Part shown: positions 2,547 to 20,488 of the stretch, piece by piece | How the letters are laid out: every line of letters starts with the position of its first letter | Numbering within the stretch: the first letter of the stretch is position 1 | Virus record (IMG/VR): IMGVR_UViG_3300033388_004178 | Coordinates: 881-23,153 of that record | Reading direction: 5' to 3' (one strand) | Length of the DNA stretch: 22,273 nt | From: a virus | Notes under the pieces: generated by a model | Told to the model about the DNA's origin: nothing | Databases searched by the model: none | What the model saw: only the letters and a program-made list of their open reading frames with translations | Made by a program: the position numbers and the translations under genes

Positions 2547-3085
2547 TTTTGTTGCCTTTCAAAAAGCATCTGCGCGATCTCGATGCTCATTCCGGCCGCC
2601 TTCGCAAAGGCTTCCGGGGTTTTGAACCCGGCGAGATAGCTTTGGTCGGTGCCCGTGGGCGCTTGGGTGAATTCCTCTTTGACCGTGGTCAAGCCGAGGC
2701 TCGGGGTTTTGGCGAAAAGCTCGGCCAGGCGCGTGAGCCCGTCCTCATCTTGTGCCATCGCGGTGTAAGTCTCGACCTGTGCCGGCACGCACTTGCCGGC
2801 CTTCATGGCCTCGTCGATGACGGCCGAGCGGCGAGCGGCGAAAGCCTGCGCTTTGGTCTCGGCCTGCTCGGCGCTCATGGCCTCGATCTTCTCGTGCGCG
2901 GCGGCGAGGCTGACTTTCGTTGCCTCGAGTTCTGCGGCGTTGCGCGCCATGGCCTCGAGGGCCGGATCGAGTTTGGCGGCCTGTTCTTTCAGCGCGACGC
3001 AGTGCGCAAAAAGGTCCTCTTTGGTCGTGTCTTTCGCCAGGCCGAAAAGGGAGCGAAGGCCGGTCGTGTCTTGTTCGTGGCTCAT
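2543..3085 (-). other. Possible internal scaffold start within the gpI-like gene
   Basis: An in-frame ATG at 3085 (MSHEQDTTGL) would give a 180-residue product covering only the helical scaffold half. In Mu the shorter scaffold gpZ starts inside the gpI gene in the same way. There is only a weak purine-rich AAGAAACC upstream, so this is an analogy, not a demonstrated start. Confidence 0.35.
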
Positions 3086-3664
3086 GGTTTCTTGTGCTTC
3101 GTTCAGGGCCGGCATGTTCAGGGCCGGGTTATTGGTCAGGGCCGCGGATTTGAACTGTTCGACGATCCGCGTCTCGGGGTCTGCGAAAAAAACGGGGCTG
3201 ATGTACCGGAACAGGCGCTTCGCAACAAAGCGCGCGCCCGGTTCGGTCCATTCGACATCGGCGACGACAAAACCGTCCTCGATCCGCATCGTGTCGGCGC
3301 TGAACCATCCTGCGGCCGCGCCGGCCGGAAAATCATCGTCGCCGGATGAAAACGGGTTTTTGCCCTCGGTGTCGTGCCGCAGGTCAAGCGGCATTCCCCC
3401 GGGGTAGTCTGCGGCCGTGCGTGCTCGGATGCGTTCGAACTCGCCCTCGGGCAGCCGAAAAAAGCGGCCGTCTCGAGCCTCGACGTCACCGATCGGCGCC
3501 AGCGGGATCGTGGTCGGTGCGGACGCCTCGCGCACCTCGCCTTCGCCGTCCTGAAGAGCAAACAGGGCAAGCCCGCGCCCAGCGAAATCGGCGCGGGTAA
3601 GCTCGGGGCGTGTCGGCTCGGACGGCACGGGGTAAGTGTGACCGGCCGTGCGCGGTTGTGTCAA
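2543..3664 (-). CDS. Head maturation protease and scaffold, Mu gpI-like
   Basis: The 373-residue protein has the two-part layout of the Mu gpI family. Residues 1-180 contain the protease-like part: PLDLRHDTEGKNPF near residue 91, PAGAAAGWFS near 112, VEWTEPGARFVAKRLFRYISP near 137-157, and AALTNNPALNM near 174-184. The second half is a long Ala/Glu/Lys-rich helical region, as in scaffolds. In Mu a shorter scaffold (gpZ) starts inside the same frame; here the Met before SHEQD (ATG at 3085) is a candidate. The assigned start is a TTG at 3664 without a clear ribosome-binding site; a GTG at 3628 is an alternative. It sits directly upstream of the decoration and capsid genes, overlapping the former as ATGA. 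Confidence 0.88.
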   Translation of the reverse strand: MTQPRTAGHTYPVPSEPTRPELTRADFAGRGLALFALQDGEGEVREASAPTTIPLAPIGDVEARDGRFFRLPEGEFERIRARTAADYPGGMPLDLRHDTEGKNPFSSGDDDFPAGAAAGWFSADTMRIEDGFVVADVEWTEPGARFVAKRLFRYISPVFFADPETRIVEQFKSAALTNNPALNMPALNEAQETMSHEQDTTGLRSLFGLAKDTTKEDLFAHCVALKEQAAKLDPALEAMARNAAELEATKVSLAAAHEKIEAMSAEQAETKAQAFAARRSAVIDEAMKAGKCVPAQVETYTAMAQDEDGLTRLAELFAKTPSLGLTTVKEEFTQAPTGTDQSYLAGFKTPEAFAKAAGMSIEIAQMLFERQQK

Positions 3665-11156: not shown

Positions 11157-11530
11157 TACGGCGCAGCCTCGCCGACGGTGAACCGTCCGTCCTGAATGGT
11201 CCGCAGCGGCGCCCCGCTGCCCGTGGGCTGCGCGCGTACCCGGTACATGTACTGACCGGCGGCCGGCATATCCGCATCGGCGACCGAAAGCGTCAACTGC
11301 CCGAGGGTCGGGTCGCCACCGAAGCTCGCAGTCATGTTCGCCACGGTGGCCAGCGTCAGCGCGTCGAAAACGATCGCGCTTTGAATGTCGAGGTTCGAAA
11401 AATCGCGCGGCTGGCCGCACTCGTCGACGTGGTCGAACGTCCGCTCGAAAAGCTCGCCCGTGCGGATCACATCGGTGAACCCCCCGATCGGGACGTTCGC
11501 GATCCCGGCCTCGTTGAATGTGACCGCCAC
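11156..11530 (-). CDS. Small beta-rich virion protein, fibre or baseplate adaptor candidate
   Basis: The 124-residue product has an N-terminal strand-rich pattern: RTGELFERTFDHVDECG near 23-39, FSNLDIQSAIVFDALT near 43-58, and a C-terminal AGQYMYRVRAQP with a closing RTIQDGRFTVGEAAP. This resembles the small immunoglobulin-like or BppU N-terminal-like proteins that connect fibres to the virion (gained strand, turn, then a YxYRVxA strand). Its stop overlaps the collagen-like fibre start as TAGTG, which supports a partner role. It starts with GTG at 11530 just downstream of a strong terminator, so it may be the first gene of a transcript, although no clear promoter is seen directly upstream. 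Identification is tentative. Confidence 0.7.
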   Translation of the reverse strand: MAVTFNEAGIANVPIGGFTDVIRTGELFERTFDHVDECGQPRDFSNLDIQSAIVFDALTLATVANMTASFGGDPTLGQLTLSVADADMPAAGQYMYRVRAQPTGSGAPLRTIQDGRFTVGEAAP

Positions 11531-11559
11531 GCCGAAAGCATAGCACGCGCGCAGGGCGC

Positions 11560-11600
11560 AAAAAATCCCCTACCCGCACAGCCCTGGCGGCGGGTAGGGG
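11560..11600 (-). terminator. Rho-independent terminator (minus strand)
   Basis: On the minus strand an 11-bp perfect inverted repeat (CCCCTACCCGC / GCGGGTAGGGG) is separated by a loop of about 12 bases and followed by A and a run of about six T. It lies between the small membrane ORF upstream and the fibre genes downstream, so those genes need readthrough, antitermination or their own promoter. Confidence 0.85.
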
Positions 11601-11640
11601 CACGAGCACCACACTCGCTATGTGTTCGGGATCCTAGCCG

Positions 11641-11751
11641 CTAGCAGCTTTGAAGGGCAACGACGCAGATCCAGCCCAGCAGGACCGCCCACGTGAGGGC
11701 TGATGCTGCTTTGCCAAGGTGTGAAAGGGCCTGCAGTGCTGATCGAATCAC
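11641..11751 (-). CDS. Possible 36-residue single-pass membrane peptide
   Basis: A GTG-started ORF encodes an amphipathic start (IRSALQALSHLGKAAS) followed by a hydrophobic segment ALTWAVLLGWICVVAL and ends QSC. The pattern fits a small membrane peptide such as a holin-like or pinholin-type protein, but there is no clear ribosome-binding site and no neighbour overlaps it. It ends about 40 bases before the terminator at 11560-11600, so it could be the last gene of the upstream transcript. It may also be a chance ORF; the hydrophobic segment is the only support. Confidence 0.35.
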   Translation of the reverse strand: MIRSALQALSHLGKAASALTWAVLLGWICVVALQSC

Positions 11752-11787
11752 GAGGGCATGAACCAGCCCGTCGCAGGTCTATTCCGG

Positions 11788-11864
11788 CGCCCCGGCGAGG
11801 AGTCGAACCTCGCACCGCGGGCGACTCTTCGATGACCCCGCGGACCCGTCCACCGGGCCGGGGC
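11788..11864 (-). other. tRNA-like structure with abnormal anticodon arm
   Basis: On the minus strand a 77-base segment has a perfect 7-bp acceptor stem (GCCCCGG with CCGGGGC) and a canonical T arm: CGAGG, loop TTCGACT, CCTCG. A weak D-like hairpin has a GG-containing loop. The centre instead holds a 7-bp stem (CCGCGGG / CCCGCGG) with a 15-base loop, and no 5-bp stem with 7-base loop can be drawn, so no anticodon can be assigned. The 3' end is followed by CCG, not CCA. It may be a degenerate phage tRNA, a tRNA mimic, or a tRNA-derived attachment site. The promoter-like TTGACA repeat begins at the next base (11865). Confidence 0.5.
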
Positions 11865-11896
11865 TTGACACTTTTCGTCGGCTCCGGTCCCCTATT
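11865..11896 (+). repeat. Direct repeat copy 1: TTGACAC-N14-GGTCCCCTATT
   Basis: The same bipartite sequence occurs at 21548-21579 with identical spacing (TTGACA, 15 bases, GGTCCCCTATT). Read rightward it looks like a -35 box with an over-long spacer before a TATT box; it abuts the tRNA-like structure. Its role is not clear from sequence: a phage promoter or operator, or part of an attachment or processing site. Confidence 0.6.
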
Positions 11897-11929
11897 GAAC
11901 TGTTGGCCAGGACCCCGGCCGTGTCACTT

Positions 11930-12256
11930 TCACCGTCGCTTGGCCCGGGCTGGTGCGCCATGGTGGGCGATGCGCTGATCGATTGCTCGGATCAGGTTGT
12001 CGTGATGCTGCTGCGCCCGGTCTTGTCGGCGCTTCTCGGCCTCGACCTTTTCAGCTTCGGCGGCCGCCTCGAGTTCATCGCGCTTTCGCTGCTGTTCGGC
12101 GTAGATCGGCGCCATGGCCTCGGCGTTGATCTCGGCGTACAGCTTCGGGTCGGTTTTCGCAGCCTTGCTCATCAGGGCCAGGTCCTCGCCCGTGGCGCAG
12201 TTTGTCGCGCGTCGGGTGATTGCGGCTTTCAGGGTCTCGCGTTCAGCTTTCGTCAT
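11930..12256 (-). CDS. Small coiled-coil protein of unknown function, next to terS
   Basis: The 108-residue product is almost entirely charged helix. It opens TKAERETLKAAITRRATNC and continues with a long coiled-coil-like stretch (YAEQQRKRDELEAAAEAEKV near 51-70, then EKRRQDRAQQHHDNL), ending in a basic HGAPARAKRR tail. I do not recognise a family. It overlaps the small terminase gene by 14 bases and is therefore probably translated with it, so an accessory packaging or DNA-binding role is possible. It is the last gene before about 400 bp holding the tRNA-like structure and a terminator. There is no membrane segment, signal peptide or cysteine pair motif beyond one Cys. Confidence 0.7.
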   Translation of the reverse strand: MTKAERETLKAAITRRATNCATGEDLALMSKAAKTDPKLYAEINAEAMAPIYAEQQRKRDELEAAAEAEKVEAEKRRQDRAQQHHDNLIRAIDQRIAHHGAPARAKRR

Positions 12257-12710
12257 CGTCTTTCGCTTTCGTCGCGTCGAGGGCCTCGAGGCCGAGCGCT
12301 TTCAGGGCGTAGGAGCGGCGCGCGTCCTCGGTCCCGTCATCGCCCCCGGCGAGGTCTTTCGGGGTTACTACGGTGTGGGTCGACTTGTCGCCCATGTCCG
12401 CAAGGTGTTTCGATAGATGGATCAGCACCGAGGCGGCACCCTTGGCCTCGGGGTTCCGGACGAAATCGAACATCAGGTCGACGACCTCCTCGCCCCCCTT
12501 GGCCTTGCCAGTCTCGCGGGCGAGATCGATCACTCCCTTGGGATCGTCCTTTCGCCAGCGGATCAGGGTCTTTTCGGCGACCCCCAAAAGGCCGGCGGTT
12601 CGCTTCCAACTGAACCCCATGCGGCCCGCGGCCTCGACGACGCCGAGGATTCGCTTGCGTTCGCCCTCGCTTTTGCTCTGCCATCCCGAACCGGGTTCAT
12701 TCGCTGTCAT
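12243..12710 (-). CDS. terS: Terminase small subunit candidate (helix-turn-helix)
   Basis: The 155-residue protein has an N-terminal helix-turn-helix: ERKRILGVVEAAGRMGFSWK near residues 15-34, then RTAGLLGVAEKTLIRWRKDD. This is the DNA-recognition layout of phage small terminases. A helical middle follows (EEVVDLMFDFVRNPEAKGAA, SVLIHLSKHLADMGDKSTHT), and then an acidic tail. Small terminases bind the packaging site and hand DNA to the large subunit. I chose ATG at 12710 because GAGG lies seven bases before it; an ATG at 12731 would add seven residues. It lies 3.9 kb upstream of terL, separated by the fibre block, an unusual gap for this pair. The assignment rests on the motif and location. 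Confidence 0.72.
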   Translation of the reverse strand: MTANEPGSGWQSKSEGERKRILGVVEAAGRMGFSWKRTAGLLGVAEKTLIRWRKDDPKGVIDLARETGKAKGGEEVVDLMFDFVRNPEAKGAASVLIHLSKHLADMGDKSTHTVVTPKDLAGGDDGTEDARRSYALKALGLEALDATKAKDDDES

Positions 12711-12761
12711 ACGCGGACCTCGCGCAGTCATGCTATCGCGCCCCCTTCGCGCGGTGTGCGC

Positions 12762-12893
12762 TCATCTTAGCACCGGCTTTCGCAGTCCAAAAACGCGCGC
12801 CAGTCGCGTGCGCTGGAACACCATCCCAACCCGCCAGCCGCCCCAGTGCTTAGAGGCGAGCCAGCGGTGGGCGAGTGTTTCGTTAGTACTCAC
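12762..12893 (-). CDS. 43-residue protein, paralogue of the N-terminus of the 13950-14348 product
   Basis: The product begins MSTNETLAHRWLASKHWGG and WRVGMVFQ, which matches by eye the opening of the 132-residue protein at 13950-14348 (MRTTNEKIARDWLQS, then SGWQLGMM). It then ends early in a basic ARVFGLRKPVLR. It may be a truncated duplicate. The GTG at 12893 overlaps the previous stop as GTGA and lies directly after junction repeat copy 1, whose GGTGGGGAG supplies the ribosome-binding site. It is the last gene of the small-gene accessory block; no function can be assigned. Confidence 0.65.
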   Translation of the reverse strand: MSTNETLAHRWLASKHWGGWRVGMVFQRTRLARVFGLRKPVLR

Positions 12894-13171
12894 TCCCCAC
12901 CTCCTAGCGCCTGGATAGCCGCCCATGCTGCGGTGCAGATGTCTGGACCCGCGTGAGCCAGGGTCATGCGGCCATTGTCGACTACGAAAGCGAGTTCGGG
13001 CGCCTCCATGTGAACCGCGATTAGAGTCCATCCTTTCGCCTCGGCCGCCTCGCGCACCCGCTGGGGGGCGATGAGTTCGGCGTAGGCGCGCTTGGTGATG
13101 CCGAGAATAGAGAGCGCTTTCCATGCGCCCTGCGGCAGTTCCCCCGCGATGTGCTCCCATGCTTCTTTTGT
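12890..13171 (-). CDS. 3' part of a frameshifted accessory gene, ending in the AIQALGGGE tail
   Basis: From about 13171 this frame reads as a coherent protein: KTKEAWEHIAGELPQGAWKA, then SILGITKRAYAELIAPQRVR, EAAEAKGWTLIAVHMEAPEL, and a strand pair ending in AWAAIQALGGGE. There is no ATG, GTG or TTG for it in the right place, and the frame further upstream looks like shadow. The natural 5' half is the 13021-13383 frame. Moving back one base at the AAAA run (13165-13168) joins them into one 164-residue protein. So this is either a programmed -1 frameshift, a mutation or a sequencing error in the A run. Its C-terminus is encoded by junction repeat copy 1. Function is unknown. Confidence 0.6.
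   Translation of the reverse strand, partial: TKEAWEHIAGELPQGAWKALSILGITKRAYAELIAPQRVREAAEAKGWTLIAVHMEAPELAFVVDNGRMTLAHAGPDICTAAWAAIQALGGGE
12892..12919 (-). repeat. Gene-junction repeat, copy 1
   Basis: On the minus strand the 28-bp unit reads GCWATCCAGGCGCTAGG, then RGGTGGGGAGT. It encodes AIQALGGGE at the end of the frameshifted gene, provides GGAGGTGGGGAG as ribosome-binding region, and ends inside the GTGA overlap that starts the next gene at 12893. This copy carries an A at the variable R position. Confidence 0.9.
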
Positions 13172-13383
13172 CTTGCTCGTGCCGCCAGCCTCTTTGCGCG
13201 CATGCGCTCCCGGTTCTTCCGTCGCTCCTCTTCCGGGTCGCGGCTTGCTCGCAGCCGTCGCATACGCTCCCGGTTCGCCCTCCGTCGCTCGTCCTCCGCT
13301 ATGTGTGCAGCACAGTCCGGCGCGGCCTGCTCGGTGGCCCACTCTTCGAAGTCCGCCTCGTTGTTGTCGCTAAACCGAATCAC
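13021..13383 (-). CDS. 5' part of a frameshifted accessory gene with tandem basic repeats
   Basis: The GTG at 13383 overlaps the upstream stop as GTGA and follows junction repeat copy 2. The first 73 residues are protein-like: an acidic start FSDNNEADFEEWATEQAA, then two copies of a basic helix motif, DERRRANRERMRRLRASRD and EEERRKNRERMRAKRLAARA. After RQKK the frame degenerates into SFSASPSAP-like low-quality sequence to its stop at 13021, while the -1 frame becomes coherent (see 12890-13171). The basic repeats suggest nucleic-acid contact, but this is inference. If no frameshifting occurs, a 120-residue truncated product would be made. Confidence 0.6.
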   Translation of the reverse strand: MIRFSDNNEADFEEWATEQAAPDCAAHIAEDERRRANRERMRRLRASRDPEEERRKNRERMRAKRLAARARQKKHGSTSRGNCRRAHGKRSLFSASPSAPTPNSSPPSGCARRPRRKDGL

Positions 13384-13562
13384 TCCCCACCCCCTAGCGC
13401 CTGGATTGCCTCCGATCGGTCGCGTCCGCAGCGGTTGCAGACGTACCCCCTCGGCGTCCATTTGTAGCAGTGCGGGCACTCGATAAGCTCCGGCCCAAAC
13501 ATAGGGTAGGCGTCCACGTAGTCACCCGGAGCCGGGTACTCCTTGCGTTTTAGTTTTCGCAT
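13380..13562 (-). CDS. 60-residue zinc-ribbon protein with AIQALGGGE tail
   Basis: The basic N-terminus (MRKLKRKEYPAPGDYVDAYP) is followed by CPHC and CNRCG, 12 residues apart, which form a four-cysteine zinc ribbon around residues 29-46. The end is SEAIQALGGGE, shared with three neighbours. I start at the ATG (13562) in the TGATG overlap; a GTG one codon upstream is equally possible. Zinc ribbons this small often bind nucleic acid or act as adaptors, but nothing here fixes a target. It belongs to the small-gene block between the HNH nuclease and terS, where phages often carry accessory or anti-defence genes. Confidence 0.75.
   Translation of the reverse strand: MRKLKRKEYPAPGDYVDAYPMFGPELIECPHCYKWTPRGYVCNRCGRDRSEAIQALGGGE
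13382..13409 (-). repeat. Gene-junction repeat, copy 2
   Basis: Same 28-bp unit as copy 1, with GCAATC at its start and GGGGGT in the middle. It encodes the AIQALGGGE tail of the 60-residue zinc-ribbon protein and sits on the GTGA overlap that starts the gene at 13383. Confidence 0.9.
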
Positions 13563-13783
13563 CACTCCCCACCCCCTAGCGCCTGGATAGCCGCTCTTGG
13601 GTCGGCCATGATGACATCCCAGTGTCGCCGCACCAGACGGCCAAACGACTCCAGGTCGGATTCGATGATTGCCCGGTGCTCGTCAGGGCTTGGCGAGTTT
13701 TCTCCGCGCCTCCCGCAGACCGGGCAGACATAGGTGTCAGTGCAAGGGTGCCCGCACCCTCGGCACTCGTAACGGTAGGCCAC
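13562..13783 (-). CDS. 73-residue protein with N-terminal zinc ribbon and AIQALGGGE tail
   Basis: Near residues 7-23 the pattern CRGCGHPCTDTYVCPVCG gives two CxxC pairs, a rubredoxin- or zinc-ribbon-like knuckle. It is followed by an acidic helix (DEHRAIIESDLESFGRLVRR) and the shared tail AAIQALGGGE. It starts with GTG in a TAGTG overlap after junction repeat copy 4. The zinc ribbon resembles that of the next gene only in cysteine pattern, not in the other residues, so the common tail is not explained by simple whole-gene duplication. Function is unknown; a small DNA- or RNA-binding adaptor is the simplest guess. Confidence 0.75.
   Translation of the reverse strand: MAYRYECRGCGHPCTDTYVCPVCGRRGENSPSPDEHRAIIESDLESFGRLVRRHWDVIMADPRAAIQALGGGE
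13564..13591 (-). repeat. Gene-junction repeat, copy 3
   Basis: Same 28-bp unit, with GCTATC at its start. It encodes the AIQALGGGE tail of the 73-residue zinc-ribbon protein and runs into the GTGATG that starts the next gene at 13562 or 13565. Confidence 0.9.
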
Positions 13784-13953
13784 TACTCCCCACCCCCTAG
13801 CGCCTGGATTGCCACACCGCGCGGCCTCTCGCCGCCAGACGGGTGGAGCGCCAGAACCGTGCCATCCACCATGCGCACCATGCGCACCTTGCGCTTCTTC
13901 GGTGCCTTCTTGTGATTCGGCCGGGTGTCCGGCTTCTTTGGTTTTGGTTTCAC
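13783..13953 (-). CDS. 56-residue strongly basic protein with AIQALGGGE tail
   Basis: The product begins KPKPKKPDTRPNHKKAPKKR, is followed by a short strand-like MVRMVDGTVLALHP, and ends RGVAIQALGGGE. Start choice: GTG at 13953 has GGAGG seven bases upstream and forms GTGA with the previous stop; the frame upstream of it is shadow. The Lys/Pro-rich N-terminus suggests nucleic-acid binding. It is the first of four consecutive genes that share the junction repeat. No family is recognised. Confidence 0.68.
   Translation of the reverse strand: MKPKPKKPDTRPNHKKAPKKRKVRMVRMVDGTVLALHPSGGERPRGVAIQALGGGE
13785..13812 (-). repeat. Gene-junction repeat, copy 4
   Basis: Same 28-bp unit, with GCAATC at its start. 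It encodes the AIQALGGGE tail of the 56-residue basic protein and continues into TAGTG, where the stop and the next GTG start (13783) share one base. Confidence 0.9.
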
Positions 13954-14348
13954 GGCGCCGCCTCCAAAGCAGCGATGAGGGCTGCGGCTTCGGTGCGAGC
14001 CTGGAAACGCTGCCAGTACACGACGCCCGCGTCGACGCACTCAGCCTCGCACGACCACAAGCGGGGCCTAAGCGTGCACGGCGGATGAGTGACCACGCAG
14101 CACCCCCAAGCCTTCCGCACGTCCTCTAGCAAGAAGGCGCGGGTTCCGGGGTGGTCGAGATCGGGACATCGCTCCCAAAGATCGAACTGCGCAGACTCGG
14201 GACCGGAGAAGATCGGGTAACCGTTATCCTCGCGGAAACCGCAGCAGATCTCGCCGCCGCTCGTCGCGTCCATCATGCCAAGTTGCCAACCGCTGAACCG
14301 CGGGGATTGCAGCCAGTCGCGGGCGATCTTTTCGTTTGTGGTTCTCAT
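13950..14348 (-). CDS. 132-residue cysteine-rich accessory protein of unknown function
   Basis: I do not recognise this protein. It opens MRTTNEKIARDWLQS, a stretch shared with the 43-residue product at 12762-12893, then shows GEICCGFREDNGYPIFSG near residues 32-49 and LWERCPDLDHPGTRAFLLED near 58-77. A Cys-rich part follows (WGCCVVTHPPC near 81-91, WSCEAEC near 98-104), and the end is an Ala-rich helix. The Cys and His residues could bind metal. The ATG at 14348 has no Shine-Dalgarno sequence; a GC-rich hairpin followed by CTTTCGGGTT lies directly before it. The open frame further upstream only mirrors the 14411-14791 gene. It is the first gene of the accessory block. Confidence 0.68.
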   Translation of the reverse strand: MRTTNEKIARDWLQSPRFSGWQLGMMDATSGGEICCGFREDNGYPIFSGPESAQFDLWERCPDLDHPGTRAFLLEDVRKAWGCCVVTHPPCTLRPRLWSCEAECVDAGVVYWQRFQARTEAAALIAALEAAP

Positions 14349-14390
14349 AACCCGAAAGCCGGCACGCTCGCCCGTGGGCGCGTTACCGGC
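14349..14390 (-). promoter_or_regulatory. Hairpin plus CTTTCGGG element before the 14348 start
   Basis: On the minus strand a GC-rich stem-loop (GCCGG / CCGGC outer stem, with CGCCC / GGGCG inside) is followed by CTTTCGGGTT and then the ATG. The 17245 start has the same layout. It may be a weak terminator, an attenuator or a leader hairpin that sets translation; there is only a short T run. Confidence 0.45.
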
Positions 14391-14410
14391 TGGCGTGGGG
14401 CGGTGGTGGG

Positions 14411-14791
14411 TTACGACGTGAGGGCCTCTGCGAGGTCGACGAGGGCCTCGGCCATGGTGGCGCGGGCCTTCGTGCTCACACCGGGCAGAATGCCGCGGCC
14501 GTCGTGAACGCGGGCCTTTTGCGTTTTGGGCCAGTGTTCGATCGTCAAAAGCGCGGTCGGGCCCATCTTTTCGCGGGCTAGGTCCTCGATCCAAAGCTCG
14601 AGCACTTTCACGGCGAGGCGGTTTTCGAGGTCGGGGCAATCGGTGAACGCCCCGGCGTGGTCGGGGTGCGGAAGCTGGCGCATGGCGACGGGGAAACGGC
14701 CGCGCGTGGCGCGATACCAGTCCATGAAACCGGCCGCGCGGGCGCGAAGTGCGAGGGCGTCGAGGTCTTGGCGGTGATGTGTGGTGCTCAT
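14411..14791 (-). CDS. 126-residue phage protein of unknown function
   Basis: The product opens MSTTHHRQDLDALALRARA and has a helix with ENRLAVKVLELWIEDLAREK near residues 56-75, a strand TALLTIEHWPKT, and a closing helix ARATMAEALVDLAEALTS. No family is recognised; the fold looks alpha/beta. The start has no Shine-Dalgarno sequence and lies a few bases after a promoter-like element, so the mRNA may be leaderless. It is followed, after about 60 bases with a hairpin, by the accessory block. The MSTT opening is shared with genes at 17723 and 17245. Confidence 0.72.
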   Translation of the reverse strand: MSTTHHRQDLDALALRARAAGFMDWYRATRGRFPVAMRQLPHPDHAGAFTDCPDLENRLAVKVLELWIEDLAREKMGPTALLTIEHWPKTQKARVHDGRGILPGVSTKARATMAEALVDLAEALTS

Positions 14792-14837
14792 CGGTGTGTG
14801 ATACTCGCTCGGTGACTGTTCTATTTCAACTATTTTT
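14792..14837 (-). promoter_or_regulatory. Promoter-like element, copy A (before the 14791 gene)
   Basis: On the minus strand AAAAATAGTTGAAATA is followed after 17 bases by GTATCAC and, six bases later, by the ATG. TTGAAA with GAGTAT 17 bases downstream can serve as -35 and -10, which would place the transcript start within a few bases of the ATG. A second copy with the same spacing precedes the 17723 gene. The element overlaps the HNH stop codon. Confidence 0.6.
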
Positions 14838-15189
14838 CAGAATCTTCGCCGACTGAACGCGCGATCAGTTCGGCCTCGTCGCGCCCTCCCTCGAGCACAG
14901 CCGCCCACCCCTGCGCATGCTGTCGGGTGTGGCACGGGCGGCAAAGCGGGATCAGGTTGCCCGCACCGTCGTCGAGGCGCGCGTGACCGCCTGCGCCGCG
15001 GCTTTTCACGTGGGCCGGGTCGGACGGGCCCGGGGCACCGCAGGCGCAGCAGGGAAGGGCCCTGACGTGGTCTGCGAGGGGGCCGAAATCCCGCTCGCGC
15101 CTCCTGGCCGCGCGTTCAGGGTTGCGCGAGCGCAGGCGGCCCGTCCTACGCAGCGGGGTTCGCCGTTTCAGGGGGCCGCCGCGTTTCAT
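14830..15189 (-). CDS. HNH endonuclease
   Basis: The 119-residue protein has a basic N-terminus (MKRGGPLKRRTPLRRTGRL) and a zinc-bound HNH core. The core shows PCCACG with Cys47/Cys50, SDPAHVKSRGAGG with His60, GNLIPLC with Asn78, and CRPCHTRQH with Cys83, Cys86, His87 and His91. This matches the small phage HNH type that recurs near terminase genes and can nick DNA during packaging; some relatives act elsewhere, including RecA-dependent nucleases. I start at ATG 15189, which shares TGATG with the previous stop; open codons upstream are shadow. It lies about 2 kb upstream of terS, separated by the small-gene block. Confidence 0.88.
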   Translation of the reverse strand: MKRGGPLKRRTPLRRTGRLRSRNPERAARRRERDFGPLADHVRALPCCACGAPGPSDPAHVKSRGAGGHARLDDGAGNLIPLCRPCHTRQHAQGWAAVLEGGRDEAELIARSVGEDSEK

Positions 15190-15485
15190 CAGAAGGTGAA
15201 CACTCCCCCGACCTGATGATCCCGGCTCGGCTTCGGCCCGGGCTTTGCCCCTTGGCGCGGTGGCCTCGGTCGGATCGTTGTCTCCTCGGGGATGCCCGCG
15301 GCCTCGCATGCCTGCGCGATGACGTGCTCGATCGCGGTCGAGTACCCGGGCAGCGCCTTGATCGAGATCTCGCCCTTTTCGTGCAGGTGTTCGGCCAGCT
15401 TCTCGAGGCGCTGCGCCGTCAGGCGCTTGACGCTGATCGAGACCCTCGTTTGTCGTTTTCCCATGTTTCGCTTTGCTCTTTTCAT
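15189..15485 (-). CDS. Small basic protein, ribbon-helix-helix-like regulator candidate
   Basis: The 98-residue product starts KRAKRNMGKRQTRVSISVKR, with the strand-like RVSISV followed by a helix LTAQRLEKLAEHLHEKGE and a second helix YSTAIEHVIAQACEAAG. This fits the strand-helix-helix order of small DNA-binding regulators. The C-terminus is Pro/Arg-rich (RPRPPRQGAKPGPKPSRDH). It starts with an ATG that forms ATGA with the stop of the 26-residue membrane peptide and ends in TGATG with the HNH gene. The regulator call is inference from pattern; no operator is identified. Confidence 0.6.
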   Translation of the reverse strand: MKRAKRNMGKRQTRVSISVKRLTAQRLEKLAEHLHEKGEISIKALPGYSTAIEHVIAQACEAAGIPEETTIRPRPPRQGAKPGPKPSRDHQVGGVFTF

Positions 15486-15562
15486 TGCTTCCAAATTTTG
15501 ACCATCAGCACCGCCGCGAAAGCAAACTCGGCGATCACCAGTAGGATGAAAATCGCGTTCAC
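15482..15562 (-). CDS. 26-residue membrane peptide, lysis-module candidate
   Basis: Nearly the whole product is a membrane helix: MNAIFILLVIAEFAFAAVLM and a basic VKIWKQ end. It starts with GTG in a GTGA overlap with the lysozyme-like stop, and its own stop overlaps the next ATG as ATGA, so translation of all three is coupled. A single-helix peptide directly after a peptidoglycan hydrolase suggests a holin-like or release role, but it is far smaller than usual holins. The coupling at both ends makes it more likely a real gene than a chance ORF. Confidence 0.6.
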   Translation of the reverse strand: MNAIFILLVIAEFAFAAVLMVKIWKQ

Positions 15563-16101
15563 GGTCGCCCCGCGTCCGCCAGGTTGATCGGCTGGTAGCA
15601 GTCGAACCCGCGCGCCTGCATGTAGGGGCAGATCGATCGCGTGGTCTGGTCCTGCATCCATCCCGAGCACTCGCCGACACCGGTCACGCACTCGTGACGG
15701 CCCGCGAATACCGCGTGAACGTCCCAAGGGGTCCGCGCCCCGTAGCGCTTGACCGCTCGGCGCCAGATCGAGGCGAGTTCCTCGGCCGTCTGACGCGGGT
15801 CGCACATGTTTTCGATGCGCGCCCCGAAATAGCGCTCGGACATGCCGTGCATCCCGAGGCCCGTGTTTTCGTCGTGTCGCCGGCTCGGACGCCAGCCCGT
15901 TTCGCGCTCGCCTGCGCTGTCGAGGAAGGCCAGGAACACCGGCTTCGCGCCCCGGGCTTTCATGTGCTCGAGGGCGAGTTGACGCGCTCCCTCGCGCTGC
16001 GTCTTGTTCCAGTAGATCCGCGGGCCCTCGACGGGGTCGCACGCGAACAGTTCGCTCGGGTCGACGAGCGCCGCCCAGATCCTGATCAGCCAGTAGATCA
16101 C
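15559..16101 (-). CDS. Lysozyme / transglycosylase-like (SLT-type) peptidoglycan hydrolase
   Basis: The 180-residue protein opens with a membrane or export segment (MIYWLIRIWAALVDPSELF). The core has FLAFLDSAGERETGWRPS, where Glu67 in the ETG context matches the catalytic glutamate of soluble lytic transglycosylases, followed by HDENTGLGMHG near residues 76-86, the GLMQI-like position. ASIWRRAVKRYGARTPWDVH and VFAGRHEC then form a helical end with six cysteines overall, which suits a protein that folds outside the cytoplasm. It should cut the glycan strand. Start is GTG at 16101, forming GTGA with the 24-residue peptide stop. The assignment to this class is by motif only. Confidence 0.72.
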   Translation of the reverse strand: MIYWLIRIWAALVDPSELFACDPVEGPRIYWNKTQREGARQLALEHMKARGAKPVFLAFLDSAGERETGWRPSRRHDENTGLGMHGMSERYFGARIENMCDPRQTAEELASIWRRAVKRYGARTPWDVHAVFAGRHECVTGVGECSGWMQDQTTRSICPYMQARGFDCYQPINLADAGRP

Positions 16102-16172
16102 CGGCGAAACAGCCCTTTCAGCGCGGCCTGGATCCAGAACAGCGGGGCGCATGGTGCGGGGAACCAGTACAT
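16098..16172 (-). CDS. 24-residue hydrophobic peptide coupled to the lysozyme-like gene
   Basis: The product is MYWFPAPCAPLFWIQAALKG plus a basic LFRR end: short, aromatic and hydrophobic. It starts at an ATG that shares TGATG with the stop of the DnaA-like gene, and its stop overlaps the lysozyme GTG as GTGA. The exact fit between two neighbours argues that it is translated, perhaps as a leader whose translation controls the lysozyme, or as a membrane peptide. It is too short for a family assignment. Confidence 0.5.
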   Translation of the reverse strand: MYWFPAPCAPLFWIQAALKGLFRR

Positions 16173-16501
16173 CACGGAAGCATCCTCGAGGCGCGGGTTT
16201 TCAGGTGGCTGACGACCTGACCGCGCTTTGTGTCGGTGGCGATCTTGCGCCAATAGTAGAAATTCGACCGATCGCCTGCGTTCAGGTACGCGACGACCTG
16301 CGCCGGCGCCAACCCGAGGCGCTCATGCAGCAGCATCGCGGCCGCAGCCCGGGCCGATGTGTGGCGCGAGTCTTTCGACGGACTGCGGATCGATTTCATG
16401 CTGACGGAAGCCGCCTCGGCGACCGCCTGAACGATGCGCTTTCGTTCGTCCTCGAAAATCGGGCGCCCGCACCCCTGACAGTATCGCTTGCCTTTTTTCA
16501 C
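16172..16501 (-). CDS. Orphan DnaA domain IV-like DNA-binding protein
   Basis: The 109-residue product has a CQGCG motif (Cys8/Cys11) at the N-terminus and, from about residue 35, the pattern of the DnaA C-terminal domain. SIRSPSKDSRHTSARAAAAM resembles the SpsRxRxxvxARxiAmyL helix, followed by LLHERLGLAPAQVVAYLNAG, and then DRSNFYYW at the place of the DHSTVxxA signature that contacts DnaA boxes. No AAA+ domain is present. Such orphan domains could compete with host DnaA for its boxes or mark the phage origin. GTG at 16501 overlaps the previous stop as GTGA. The DnaA resemblance is clear by eye, but the function is inferred. Confidence 0.72.
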   Translation of the reverse strand: MKKGKRYCQGCGRPIFEDERKRIVQAVAEAASVSMKSIRSPSKDSRHTSARAAAAMLLHERLGLAPAQVVAYLNAGDRSNFYYWRKIATDTKRGQVVSHLKTRASRMLP

Positions 16502-16686
16502 TTGTTTTTCAGCTCCTCGACACCGGTCACGCGCAGGACGGTGAACTGTTCGCCGCCCTGGTTCGCTCTGATGTAGCTATCCCGAACGCCGAACGCGTTT
16601 CCGCGAACGGACGTGACGAGGTACGGCGCCCGCGTCTCGGCGTGAATGACTATGAAGTACTCGCGTTTTAGATCCTGAGTGCCCAT
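16498..16686 (-). CDS. 62-residue protein of unknown function
   Basis: The product (opening MGTQDLKREYFIVIHAETRA and ending in VLRVTGVEELKNK) is a small strand-rich protein with an EYFIVI strand, an APYLVTSVRG strand and a short charged helix. No family is recognised. The ATG at 16686 has GAGGGG five bases upstream and lies inside the end of the previous gene. The longer open frame upstream is shadow. Confidence 0.7.
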   Translation of the reverse strand: MGTQDLKREYFIVIHAETRAPYLVTSVRGNAFGVRDSYIRANQGGEQFTVLRVTGVEELKNK

Positions 16687-16940
16687 TGCAACCCCTCGTG
16701 AAAAACCCGATCGGCCCCGGTGTGGCGGGTGACCTCGTCGCTCGTGATCCCGTTGATCGCCTTGAATCGCTCGAGGGCGTCGCGGCTCACTTTCAGCAGG
16801 AGGCCGCCGGTCTCGCCGCAGCCTCGCTCGGTGGCGGTGACCTCGGTCATCCCCTCGGCCGAGATCCGCTGCGTGGCCGTCTCGACCGTCAGCGCATTGT
16901 CCTGATCTAGTTGGATCACGGTGGTGATCGTGACTTTCAT
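16668..16940 (-). CDS. 90-residue protein of unknown function
   Basis: The product opens with a strand pair (KVTITTVIQLDQDNALTVET), has a Cys in TERGCGETGG, and ends with a helical part (SRDALERFKAINGITSDEVT, then HEGLQWALRI). No family is recognised. It starts with ATGA overlapping the previous stop, and its end is overlapped by the 62-residue gene for about 19 bases. Confidence 0.72.
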   Translation of the reverse strand: MKVTITTVIQLDQDNALTVETATQRISAEGMTEVTATERGCGETGGLLLKVSRDALERFKAINGITSDEVTRHTGADRVFHEGLQWALRI

Positions 16941-17245
16941 CGGCCGAACTCCTGATCGAAAGCCTCGCGGTGCGCGTCATAAGCGTCCTCGCGCAGCGCG
17001 TCGTTTTTCGAGCGCTCAAAATCAGGATCGCCGTTTCGGTGGCGTTCCTGTTCGGCCTCCTCGGCCCGATAGTTGTCGAGGCACTCGACGGCGTGATCGA
17101 ACTCCCAACCGCCGAGGACGGCCTCGAGGTCAACGTCGCATTCGTCCTCGAGGTACACGGCGAGGCGCCCGATCAGCGCGTCGCGCTCGGCGATCTTTTG
17201 CCGATAGCCCTGGATCTCGGTGATTCTGTCTTTCGTGGTGCTCAC
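16937..17245 (-). CDS. 102-residue acidic helical protein of unknown function
   Basis: The product opens MSTTKDRITEIQGYRQKIAE, a coiled-coil-like helix, continues with an acidic DECDVDLEAVLGGWEFDHAV, and ends in a charged tail with DALREDAYDAHREAFDQEFG. No family is recognised. The GTG start lies immediately after the hairpin-CTTTCGGGGT element and shows no other ribosome-binding site. It shares the MSTT opening, and the DNA around it, with genes at 17723 and 14791. Confidence 0.7.
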   Translation of the reverse strand: MSTTKDRITEIQGYRQKIAERDALIGRLAVYLEDECDVDLEAVLGGWEFDHAVECLDNYRAEEAEQERHRNGDPDFERSKNDALREDAYDAHREAFDQEFGR

Positions 17246-17281
17246 ACCCCGAAAGCCCCGTCCGCTTGCGCGGTACGGGGC
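17246..17281 (-). promoter_or_regulatory. Hairpin plus CTTTCGGG element before the 17245 start
   Basis: On the minus strand CCCCGT and ACGGGG form a stem around CCGCGCAAGCGG-like inner pairing, followed by CTTTCGGGGT and the GTG start. The same layout precedes the 14348 gene. A terminator, attenuator or RNA-processing site are all possible; the T run is too short for a strong terminator. Confidence 0.45.
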
Positions 17282-17303
17282 GGGGGTCGATTGGCGGCCG
17301 GGG

Positions 17304-17723
17304 CTACACGCGGCCCGACTGGTAGGCCATCCGCTCGCGCCATTCGTCGCGCTCGTCGATCATGCGGGCCCAATCCTCGGCGTTTTGCTCGTGACGGGCC
17401 TCGTCGATTTCGTCTTTTGCGTCACTGATGATCCGATCGAGGATCGAGAAAACGGCCTCCTCGGCGTGCGCGACGTGGCGCTCGGTCTCGCAGACGCGCA
17501 GCTCCTCGCCGTCACAAAAGAGGTCGAGTTTGACCTCCTCGCCGTAAAGCTCGATCTCGATCGTGGTGGTCGCGTAGTCCTCGGACCCCTCGCGGTCTTC
17601 GCCGAGTTCGATTTCGAAGGTCAGGCCCTTGGCGTACTTGGGGAACGCAACGGCGACGGCGACGGCCTTTGCGATCGCGGGGTGGACTTCATGGGTCTGG
17701 CTGGCTTGCTCGGTGGTGCTCAT
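17304..17723 (-). CDS. 139-residue acidic protein of unknown function
   Basis: The product opens MSTTEQASQTHEVHPAIAKA, then an AVAVAFPKYAKGLTFEIELG segment, an acidic strand pair (YATTTIEIELYGEEVKLDLF, CDGEELRVCE), and a helical end DAKDEIDEARHEQNAEDWAR. It is very acidic, which is common in phage host-takeover proteins or DNA mimics, but no family is recognised and mimicry is only a possibility. It is the first gene after the 17771-17804 terminator and lies a few bases after promoter-like copy B without a Shine-Dalgarno sequence, so a leaderless start is likely. Confidence 0.73.
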   Translation of the reverse strand: MSTTEQASQTHEVHPAIAKAVAVAVAFPKYAKGLTFEIELGEDREGSEDYATTTIEIELYGEEVKLDLFCDGEELRVCETERHVAHAEEAVFSILDRIISDAKDEIDEARHEQNAEDWARMIDERDEWRERMAYQSGRV

Positions 17724-17771
17724 CTTGTGGGGTGATACTTGCGCGCGGCCGGTCTTATTTCAACTATTTTT
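17724..17771 (-). promoter_or_regulatory. Promoter-like element, copy B (before the 17723 gene)
   Basis: On the minus strand AAAAATAGTTGAAATA is followed after 17 bases by GTATCAC and, eight bases later, by the ATG. Spacing and sequence match copy A at 14792-14837 while the bases between the two boxes differ, which argues for selection on the boxes. It lies directly downstream of a strong terminator, as expected for a new transcript. Confidence 0.65.
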
Positions 17772-17804
17772 AAAAAAGTGAAAGCCGGGGTTTTCGCCCC
17801 GGCT
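17771..17804 (-). terminator. Rho-independent terminator (minus strand)
   Basis: On the minus strand an 8-bp stem (AGCCGGGG / CCCCGGCT) with a CGAAAA loop is followed by TTCACTTTTTT. It lies 21 bases after the stop of the spanin-like gene and should end the early leftward transcript; promoter-like copy B begins where it ends. Confidence 0.9.
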
Positions 17805-17824
17805 CCGGTGTTCAGTGTGCGCGA

Positions 17825-18073
17825 CTATCGCGCGGAGCTGATACAGCGTTCGGTGCGCTCGATCAGGTCGATGGTTTCATCGATCGCCGCGTCCTCGCGG
17901 GCTCGCAGGCGAGCGGGTAGCTTGCGCAGGTACTCGACGGCCTTTTTCGGCTCTGCGAACGCTGCAGACAGCTTCCCGTCTGTCAGCGCGCACGCCGAGA
18001 CCCTGACCACCTGGCCGCGCTCGCAAGCCGCCAGGGTGGCGCACAGCGCCGCGACGAGGGCCAGCCTACGCAT
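17825..18073 (-). CDS. Small lipoprotein, outer spanin (Rz1-like) candidate
   Basis: The 82-residue product has a lipoprotein signal: RRLALVAALCATLAAC with a lipobox LAAC near residues 14-17, so it should be lipid-anchored at Cys17. The mature part is helical (EPKKAVEYLRKLPARLRARE and DAAIDETIDLIERTERC). Rz1-type outer spanins are short lipoproteins encoded with a holin, although most are proline-rich, which this is not. The ATG at 18073 overlaps the upstream membrane-protein stop by eight bases and has GGGGG nine bases before it. Open codons further upstream are shadow. It is the last gene before the terminator. Confidence 0.62.
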   Translation of the reverse strand: MRRLALVAALCATLAACERGQVVRVSACALTDGKLSAAFAEPKKAVEYLRKLPARLRAREDAAIDETIDLIERTERCISSAR

Positions 18074-19029: not shown

Positions 19030-19331
19030 CCATCACCCCGCATCCGGCGAACCTGTCGCTCGATTTTGAACTGAACCCGCTCGTCGATCGCGTGGCCTCC
19101 AAAGATCACGCGCAGTTGAATCGCCATGATCAGGACGTCTGCGATTTCGTCGATGACGTCCGCAGTAGCGGGGCCAACCGATGATCGGCTTTTGGCGAAC
19201 CTGTACTCGGTCAGCGCGTGGTCGAGTTCTCGCAGTTCTTCCTGCGTCTTTTTGATCTGAGCCTCGGCGCCGTAATGGCCAACCGCGTACTCGGCGAACG
19301 TCAGGGGGCGGACGAAATCAGAACCGGTCAT
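19026..19331 (-). CDS. MazG-like nucleoside triphosphate pyrophosphatase
   Basis: The 101-residue protein fits the all-alpha NTP pyrophosphatase (MazG-like) family. A helix IKKTQEELRELDHALTEY carries the EExxE metal site (Glu31, Glu32, Glu35), and a second helix TADVIDEIADVLIMAIQLRV carries the ExxD site (Glu62, Asp65). Such enzymes hydrolyse NTPs to NMP and pyrophosphate and are common in phages, where they may alter nucleotide or (p)ppGpp pools. The ATG at 19331 shares TGATG with recT; the open frame upstream is shadow. It is followed by ATGA overlap with the small exported protein. Confidence 0.82.
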   Translation of the reverse strand: MTGSDFVRPLTFAEYAVGHYGAEAQIKKTQEELRELDHALTEYRFAKSRSSVGPATADVIDEIADVLIMAIQLRVIFGGHAIDERVQFKIERQVRRMRGDG

Positions 19332-20488
19332 CACTCGCCCCCCTGGCTGGCTTCGAACTGTTCCTCGGCGCGGGCCTCCCAATCGGGCAGAGGTTCGTCC
19401 TCGAAATGCTCCTCGACCGCCTGGCCGTTCACGAAAGCCGCGAACTCGGCGCAAAGGGCGTCGCCCTCGTCACCGGCGGCCGCCCACTGATCAAGGTGAC
19501 CGATCGCGCGCTCGAGGAGTTTTAGTTGCTCGCCGCGGTTTTCGACGCCCGCGGGCCACGGGTCCGCGTCGCTCGCCAGGAACATGATCAGCGAGTAAAA
19601 GACGCCGTTCGAACGGGTCATTTCGACGCCGGCGCGCTCGCAGAATTTGATCGCCCGTCGCCATGCTTTGCCCATGGCCGCTTTGTGGGCCTCGCGCAGT
19701 TTCAGGTCGGGGTTTTCGAGCATGGCCTGACGCTGCGCCGCGTACCCGTCGACGGTGATCGTCGCCTCGTCGACGCCGGCCTCGCGGTATTCATCACGGA
19801 TGATCGCCTCCTTGGCCGCGTCCGGAATGGGCAGGAACTTTGCCAGCCGGTGAACCGCGGTTTTCAGGGCCATAGCCTCGAAATGGTCGCGCCACACATT
19901 CGAGCACTCGGCCCACTTCGTAGCTGTACGGGCCCGCGCTTTGTCGATGTCCTCACGGGTGATCGTTCGAAACGCGACCTCGCCCGTTTTCAGCTTTGCC
20001 GTGCAGTACGCGGCGATCACCTCGCCGCCCTCCTCGTGCCCCATGCAGTACCACGGGACGTGGTGGATCGATCGGCTCGTGCCTTTGCTTTCGTGGAATT
20101 CGTCATTTTCGAAAACCAATTCGGGGCTGATGTCGAGAAGCTCGCCGCCGCGTCGGGCGAGTTTCATCGCGCCGCGGTATCCGAGTTGAAAATAGGCCCA
20201 CTGGCTTTCTGTGTCGCGGTTCCACCGGGGGATGATGTAGCACTCGCCGAGGACGTTTCCGGGGGTGAGCCCCAACTGCGCAGCCTCGACGCAGGCGATC
20301 ACAAACGAGTGCCAGGGGGCTTCGCGCAGTTTGGGCGTCGAGTTGAACACGCGCGCGCAGATCGACATGAACTGAACGGGATCGAGGCTGCCCGCGAGGG
20401 CCTGTTCGATCTTTTCTTGGTTTTCCGCGAGTGATTGCATCACGGTGCGGCGTTGCTTTTCGGTTTTCTGGATCGCTGTTTCGGTCAT
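19331..20488 (-). CDS. recT: RecT-type single-strand annealing protein
   Basis: The 385-residue protein has the RecT family core: MSICARVFNSTPKLREAPWH near residues 41-60, SFVIACVEAAQLGLTPGNVL near 61-80, CYIIPRWNRD, then AYFQLGYRGAMKLARRGG near 98-115, and later KWAECSNVWRDHFEAMALKT near 191-210 and VHRLAKFLPI. RecT anneals complementary strands in recombination and replication of phages. The C-terminal 130 residues are longer than in the E. coli protein and end in an acidic tail (EEHFEDEPLPDWEARAEEQF). The ATG at 20488 has a weak AAAGAG site. No RecE-like exonuclease is seen in the window. Confidence 0.93.
   Translation of the reverse strand: MTETAIQKTEKQRRTVMQSLAENQEKIEQALAGSLDPVQFMSICARVFNSTPKLREAPWHSFVIACVEAAQLGLTPGNVLGECYIIPRWNRDTESQWAYFQLGYRGAMKLARRGGELLDISPELVFENDEFHESKGTSRSIHHVPWYCMGHEEGGEVIAAYCTAKLKTGEVAFRTITREDIDKARARTATKWAECSNVWRDHFEAMALKTAVHRLAKFLPIPDAAKEAIIRDEYREAGVDEATITVDGYAAQRQAMLENPDLKLREAHKAAMGKAWRRAIKFCERAGVEMTRSNGVFYSLIMFLASDADPWPAGVENRGEQLKLLERAIGHLDQWAAAGDEGDALCAEFAAFVNGQAVEEHFEDEPLPDWEARAEEQFEASQGGE

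Follow-up and report, generated by a model that had tools for sequence, protein, structure and literature searches.

A 28-bp joint repeated at four consecutive small-gene junctions of a phage with a Mu-type head: a putative element for translational coupling and gene exchange

How does a run of very small and apparently unrelated genes come to be connected by almost the same piece of DNA at each of its junctions? The question is raised by the IMG/VR virus record IMGVR_UViG_3300033388_004178, which is 23,153 bases in length and of which we have analysed a stretch of 22,273 nucleotides, referred to here as the window. The minus strand of the window encodes a Mu-type head module comprising terminase, Mu-type portal, Mu F-like protein, protease and gpT-type capsid, and upstream of this module lies an accessory stretch that includes a gene for a RecT-family protein. 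Five small genes, designated A to E, are found between the gene at 13950–14348 and that at 12243–12731, and a 28-bp sequence recurs at the junctions that connect them. No family was found in a record-wide Rfam scan at the gathering threshold, and a tRNA scan of the record found nothing. The features required for the discussion are as follows.

19331–20488, minus strand: RecT-family annealing protein, the proposed helper of recombination (Pfam RecT, E = 5.2e-36)
13950–14348, minus strand: gene upstream of the array, with its own tail IAALEAAP; its N-terminus is related to that of gene E
13783–13953, minus strand: gene A, Lys-rich protein of 56 aa ending AIQALGGGE
13785–13812, minus strand: joint copy 1, end of gene A and Shine-Dalgarno sequence of gene B, ...GAGTAGTG, running into TAGTG
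13562–13783, minus strand: gene B, 73 aa with two CxxC pairs, ending AIQALGGGE
13564–13591, minus strand: joint copy 2, end of gene B and start of gene C, ...GAGTGATG, running into GTGATG
13380–13565, minus strand: gene C, 61 aa, likewise with two CxxC pairs, ending AIQALGGGE
13382–13409, minus strand: joint copy 3, end of gene C and start of gene D, ...GAGTGATT, running into GTGA
12890–13383, minus strand: gene D, in the frame from 13383 and then in the −1 frame to 12890 (codon-usage scan), ending AIQALGGGE
12892–12919, minus strand: joint copy 4, end of gene D and start of gene E, with a perfect AGGAGGT, running into GTGA
12762–12893, minus strand: gene E, encoding 43 aa and started from joint copy 4; its N-terminus is related to that of the gene at 13950–14348
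12243–12731, minus strand: gene adjoining the array, weakly similar to HTH proteins and terminase small subunits, 61% identical to positions 3052–3546 of the related locus L006

The original prediction of four near-identical 28-bp copies at consecutive junctions is borne out, with pairwise identities of 26–28/28. The 40 bases upstream of the copies match at 14–17/40 and the 40 downstream at 8–14/40, which is the level of chance, and thus the edges of the joint are sharp. None of 100 shuffles gave a match to the repeat, and a search of the entire record with the first 20 bases of the unit finds just four occurrences, even when three mismatches are allowed. In the frame of the upstream gene the unit reads GCW ATC CAG GCG CTA GGR GGT GGG GAG T. 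Its two variable sites are both synonymous, and all four copies encode the tail AIQALGGGE in frame, followed as predicted by GTGA, GTGATG or TAGTG, so that at each of the four joints the stop overlaps or abuts the GTG start of the next gene. The inner three copies have exact common runs of 25–29 bp; those shared by the copy at 12892 with the others are only 14–20 bp long.

The same DNA contains a strong Shine-Dalgarno sequence, AGGRGGT, which lies 5 bases before the GTG in three copies and 8 before it in that at 13785. With the anti-Shine-Dalgarno it is predicted to pair at −10.6 to −11.5 kcal/mol. Such energies were computed for 36 positions, comprising 35 starts assigned by hand and one position that is not a start; the joints rank among the strongest of these, and the copy at 12892 is the strongest of all. 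A ribosome-binding region extending over GGxGGTGGGGAG had been proposed; the site itself is present, with its core confined to AGGRGGT and the start-adjacent GGGGA acting as spacer. The anatomy of the joint is observed, and from it we infer translational coupling between the genes on either side.

The proteins that end in the common tail have little else in common. They were compared with the tails removed and with D in its two parts: for every pairing of A, B, C and these parts, more than 5 of 500 shuffles scored as well as the real pair, in keeping with the claim that they are otherwise unrelated. B and C had been described as zinc ribbons; by eye each has two CxxC pairs, and their matches to Pfam zinc-ribbon families all fall below the cut-off. 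The description of D as a frameshifted protein holds, as codon usage places a switch of frame between about 13220 and 13160, near CAAAAGAAG; the shift could be programmed, or it could reflect decay of the gene or an error of sequencing. Searches of Pfam and PHROGs gave no convincing match for any array protein. A tblastn search of 50,697 phage records gave none for A, the two parts of D, E or the gene at 13950, and weak matches only for B and C, and in the viral_contigs collection there was no relative of the gene at 14411 or of the second part of D. Codon adaptation is 0.52–0.64 for the array genes against 0.65–0.77 for the core genes, on a measure trained on the core genes themselves. Several genes outside the array are equally low, and we give low adaptation little weight as a sign of recent gain.

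One route to such an array is an old tandem duplication of a gene-plus-joint unit, after which the genes diverged or were replaced through decay, the joints being kept similar by gene conversion and no genes passing between phages. The four copies do lie within a single 0.9-kb run and in one orientation. Moreover, the genes that flank the array (12762–12893 and 13950–14348) share the N-terminal motif TNExxAxxWLxSxxxxGWxxGM, matched as well by none of 500 shuffles, and thus some duplication has occurred around the array. Against this, A, B, C and D are mutually unrelated, and conversion would need to halt exactly at the edges of the joint. A simple tandem duplication had been named at the outset as a finding that would speak against a modular joint, and the sequence is unlike one, given the unrelated genes and the sharp edges. 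Conversion acting on older copies would leave the same picture as exchange. We judge the duplication account as a whole to be unlikely.

Alternatively the joints might have converged on an optimal coupled start, with AGGRGGT, spacer and GTGA selected at each junction, the LGGGE tails arising independently and recombination having no role. To see how far this can reach, the unit is best divided into two layers. The right half (LGGGE) is whatever a strong Shine-Dalgarno sequence beside a stop encodes in this frame, in any gene. In the window itself the RecT protein ends in QGGE, at a junction that reads GTGATG, and an 88-kb phage record (L129, minus strand 2471–2489) has the 19 bases of the right half, GCTAGGAGGTGGGGAGTGA, with the tail RLGGGE and a coupled open frame starting at GTGA. 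This record lies outside the terminase relatives of the window and was the only match to the joint pattern in viral_contigs. It is an apparent case of convergence: with these 19 bases present at a coupled junction there too, the right half can arise by itself, although in a collection of this size a single 19-base match might also be due to chance. Convergence accounts for no more than the right half. All four copies also have the left half, GCWATCCAGGCG, in common, codon for codon, and it adds nothing to the ribosome site. CTA, the Leu codon of the unit, is rare, accounting for 12 of 228 Leu codons in the core genes. From the codon use of the core genes, agreement at the seven invariant codons of the nine has a probability of 1.3e-6 if the four tails are independent and their residues are taken as already given. 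Because it has the same codons four times and no role in the ribosome site, the left half, which the Shine-Dalgarno sequence leaves unexplained, points to copying. Convergence on its own is in our view quite improbable. More improbable still is the earlier suggestion that the tail itself serves as a tag, recognised by a shared partner or protease, with selection acting on the peptide to keep it: both variable sites are indeed synonymous, an outcome that we estimate at about 1 in 10 by chance, but two such changes say little, third positions are conserved as well, half of the tail follows from the Shine-Dalgarno sequence, none of the three matches to AIQALGGG(E/D) in viral_contigs ends at the tail, and the analogous tails of the related phage L006 differ at three of eight residues.

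On balance we favour a joint that serves both as an element of translational coupling and as a short homology for the in-frame gain and loss of small genes, perhaps helped by RecT. This phage with its Mu-type head has an accessory stretch ahead of the packaging genes, and there the 28-bp unit would have been copied together with small genes. At the level of RNA, a strong AGGRGGT at the end of the reading frame, with the stop placed on the next GTG, would allow ribosomes ending one gene to start the next, and the tail peptide would be mainly a by-product of placing a Shine-Dalgarno sequence within the upstream frame. At the level of DNA, about 25–29 bp of homology would be held in fixed register with stop and start. 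Annealing between copies, within one genome or between two phages, might then insert, delete or swap whole small genes and leave their neighbours intact, and the RecT protein is the proposed helper of that annealing. When the copies were combined in silico in all 16 ways (12 exchanges and four unchanged joints), every product kept the tail, the stop and the start at the right distance. Minimal pairing lengths of 23–27 bp for Red-beta and 31–34 bp for RecA are quoted in the available part of PMC3945230. The exact runs of 25–29 bp in the inner copies are in the range of or above the former and below the latter, though neither figure is for this RecT. A search for RecT in seven other records, all of them possibly partial, gave no match. 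We infer recombination between the copies by analogy, the gain and loss of genes at such joints being seen in analogues only. In the collections searched, no genome turned up that combines this joint with different genes; exchange in the lineage of the window is therefore put forward as a hypothesis, and the pool of joints on which it would draw is hypothetical. The reading of the repeat as a modular joint thus stands as far as unrelated genes on near-identical joints, with all 12 exchanges in frame, and for exchange within the lineage it leans on the analogues.

Is the joint a known kind of element? Morons are genes with their own promoter and terminator; simple consensus scans revealed no promoter-like site in 11500–18000 and no minus-strand terminator-like site in 12762–13953. 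Integron cassettes are recombined at attC-type sites, which have the core GTTRRRY on a foldable strand, and this core is absent from all four copies. Neither do the joints have a common RNA fold, the folding z-scores of the junctions being 0.47, −2.68, −0.30 and −1.14. The start-associated motif of Cluster K mycobacteriophages is GGGATAGGAGCCC. A scan allowing up to three mismatches gave seven matches against 7.06 expected, and the sole match overlapping a joint is on the other strand. The likeness to these sequences that had been noted thus lies in position, the repeat occupying the ribosome-binding position before several unrelated genes, and does not extend to this motif. In Cluster K the start-associated sequences likewise occupy the ribosome-binding position of several genes and sometimes hold the upstream stop; they differ from the joint in being spread over many sites in six related genomes, with no shared tail described in the part of the paper available (PMC3203893).

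The closest precedent is provided by the mycobacteriophage Island3, in which gp67 and gp68 share a C-terminal tail and the DNA that encodes it, 60 bp in common, at a stop/start overlap. Brujita is without gene 68 and keeps a single recombinant copy, and the authors proposed recombination between the Island3 copies, which they likened to boundary sequences (PMC3029335, available text). On realignment 61/81 bases of the Island3 joint are alike. Just as at Island3 67/68, the same DNA is present in the window at the 3′ ends of adjacent genes with unrelated bodies. In contrast to the two longer and less similar copies of Island3, the window has four of 28 bp, nearly identical and with a strong Shine-Dalgarno sequence inside. 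In Corndog a 17-bp direct repeat flanks the extra gene 14 and is single at the corresponding junction of relatives; there are two copies, with no shared protein tail described in the accessible text, compared with four tail-encoding copies here (PMC4351075). Among the matches listed, the titles and abstracts of open-licence papers yielded two-copy precedents and start-associated repeats, and none with at least three tail-encoding copies of a joint. As far as the available texts go, we call the joint an already known type, that of the two-copy tail joints, and four near-identical copies are what is new.

How unusual is this? In a census of 126 sequences (2.1 Mb), ORFs of 40 codons or more were called mechanically and gave 27,913 tails. 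Of 1,958,663 same-sequence pairs of tails, 10 share at least 19/24 tail bases although their bodies are unrelated, defined as at most 33/60 upstream bases alike; the sequences include near-duplicate phages and bacterial contigs and so are not all independent. Six of the ten pairs are the copies of the joint (23–24/24) and one is a pair in the Mu-like phage L087; the remaining three (L046, L059 and L078) look by eye like spurious ORFs. The upstream filter removed 11 of 21 pairs, namely Island3 gp67/68 and repeats that run on upstream, and thus the screen recovers the known case once the filter is lifted. Among 3262 coupled RTGA junctions from 117 loci, pairs from the window score 26–27/27, and the next best, leaving aside a long repeat in L067, are from L087 (23 and 21) and L006 (21). 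As a yardstick, the P-nin-Q junctions of lambda have a longest shared run of 10 bases. A repeat census of the 117 loci gave rows from L021, L045, L078 and L081 that on inspection were not like gene joints, and rows from L037, L038, L053, L054, L056, L067 and L071 that were not inspected singly.

The original prediction had looked to other phage DNA for the 28-bp unit and for proteins ending in AIQALGGGE, and viral_contigs gave no second case. Exact and relaxed joint patterns in that collection, and the exact pattern in genome_contigs, revealed no second joint of this kind; no near copy is present in the comparison loci, and no relative with the same array was found in viral_contigs or the phage records.

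The nearest relatives of the window by terminase are 56–64% identical, and L006 alone among them covers the homologous stretch (L007 looks to be the same phage or one very close to it, but begins inside that stretch). In L006 a 127-nt unit is present four times, at 138–264, 1309–1435, 1737–1863 and 2067–2193, each copy running into the start of a small gene. The copies are 84–108/127 alike with exact runs of 23–32 bp, and three of the four genes begin METTQ. Without their first eight residues the four proteins are unlike at the cut of 5 in 500 shuffles, one pair being borderline at 7. L006 thus resembles the window in having repeated joints in the small-gene stretch of a terminase-related phage, and differs in that its main unit has another sequence and enters the first codons rather than encoding a tail. 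There are also two tail joints, NELLEACE and DELLGASE, 21/27 alike, on consecutive genes just before the terminase-small-like gene. One of these matches the joint of the window at 18/27, both containing CTAGGGG and GGAGTGA, a link that is suggestive only, given that two other junctions (L092 and L093) score 19 and 18. At this genomic position, then, both phages are made up of repeated joints, which differ in sequence between the two. L006 also contains three copies (1085, 1694 and 2406) of a 44-nt unit that looks by eye like a hairpin.

A number of further repeats were observed. The 127-nt repeat of L006 is promoter-like by eye, with a −10-like box near the start codon, and its mRNAs are possibly near-leaderless. 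In the window, 14798–14842 and 17732–17776 are 45-nt copies, 78% alike and promoter-like by eye (TTGAAA ... TATCAC), and the genes directly after them both begin ATGAGCACCAC (MSTT); a consensus promoter scan gave no site at either. A second start-type repeat, 77% alike over 39 nt, is found at 14322–14360 and 17219–17257, with GGCTTTCGGG just before ATGAG/GTGAG starts, and a similar sequence precedes the start at position 510 of L006.

The analogue that comes closest to gain and loss is a pair of Mu-like phages, L087 and L090, with related terminases and largely syntenic small genes that are 53–97% identical. In L087 a gene for 170 aa, whose start at 3311 was chosen by hand inside a longer mechanical ORF, lies exactly between the tail joints EDAKAGAA and LVTKAGAE, which are 18/27 alike; 0.12% of random cross-locus junction pairs reach that score. 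At the corresponding place L090 has one joint (QQLQAGAK), 15 and 18/27 like the two of L087. The neighbours of the gene are 53 and 91% identical to their L090 counterparts, and the gene itself was not found anywhere in the 35,555-base L090 record. This presence and absence resembles that of Island3 and Brujita. Elsewhere L087 has three genes where L090 has two others. One of the five junctions there is GTGC-CTGATG rather than of ATGA type, and its tail aligns poorly (10–13/27 against the other L087 junctions); the remaining four junctions have the tails GDAGAGEE, GNAKAGAA, AQRRAGAA and RHIDGGTA. Over the eight junctions of the two phages, pairwise identities are 7 to 23/27, much weaker than in the window. 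Like the window, the pair has repeated joints in small-gene stretches; unlike it, the joints have other sequences and are shorter and weaker. By analogy the comparison supports joint-bounded gain and loss as a class, rather than as an event in the window. The joints of L006 and L087 give no sign of needing RecT, since RecT was not found in those possibly partial records. By eye alone, a small gene at 2474–2728 of L090 looks like an acyl carrier protein (MTRAEILTEVAALL...LGMDSLDIVE).

A bolder and more doubtful form of the favoured reading is a cassette system free of any integrase, in which a pool of tiny genes, each carrying the 28-bp joint, would be strung together in any order and number by RecT annealing. 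If so, translation would be coupled by construction in any gene order, and lineages would differ in the joint that they use (the start-codon type of L006, the KAGAA type of L087) and follow the same logic. How phages gain and lose many tiny accessory genes without wrecking their operons is an open question. The tail census offers a simple screen for further joints, and a four-copy joint with sharp edges, with stop, ribosome site and start in register and a RecT of the phage's own, would provide a clean model in which to test it.
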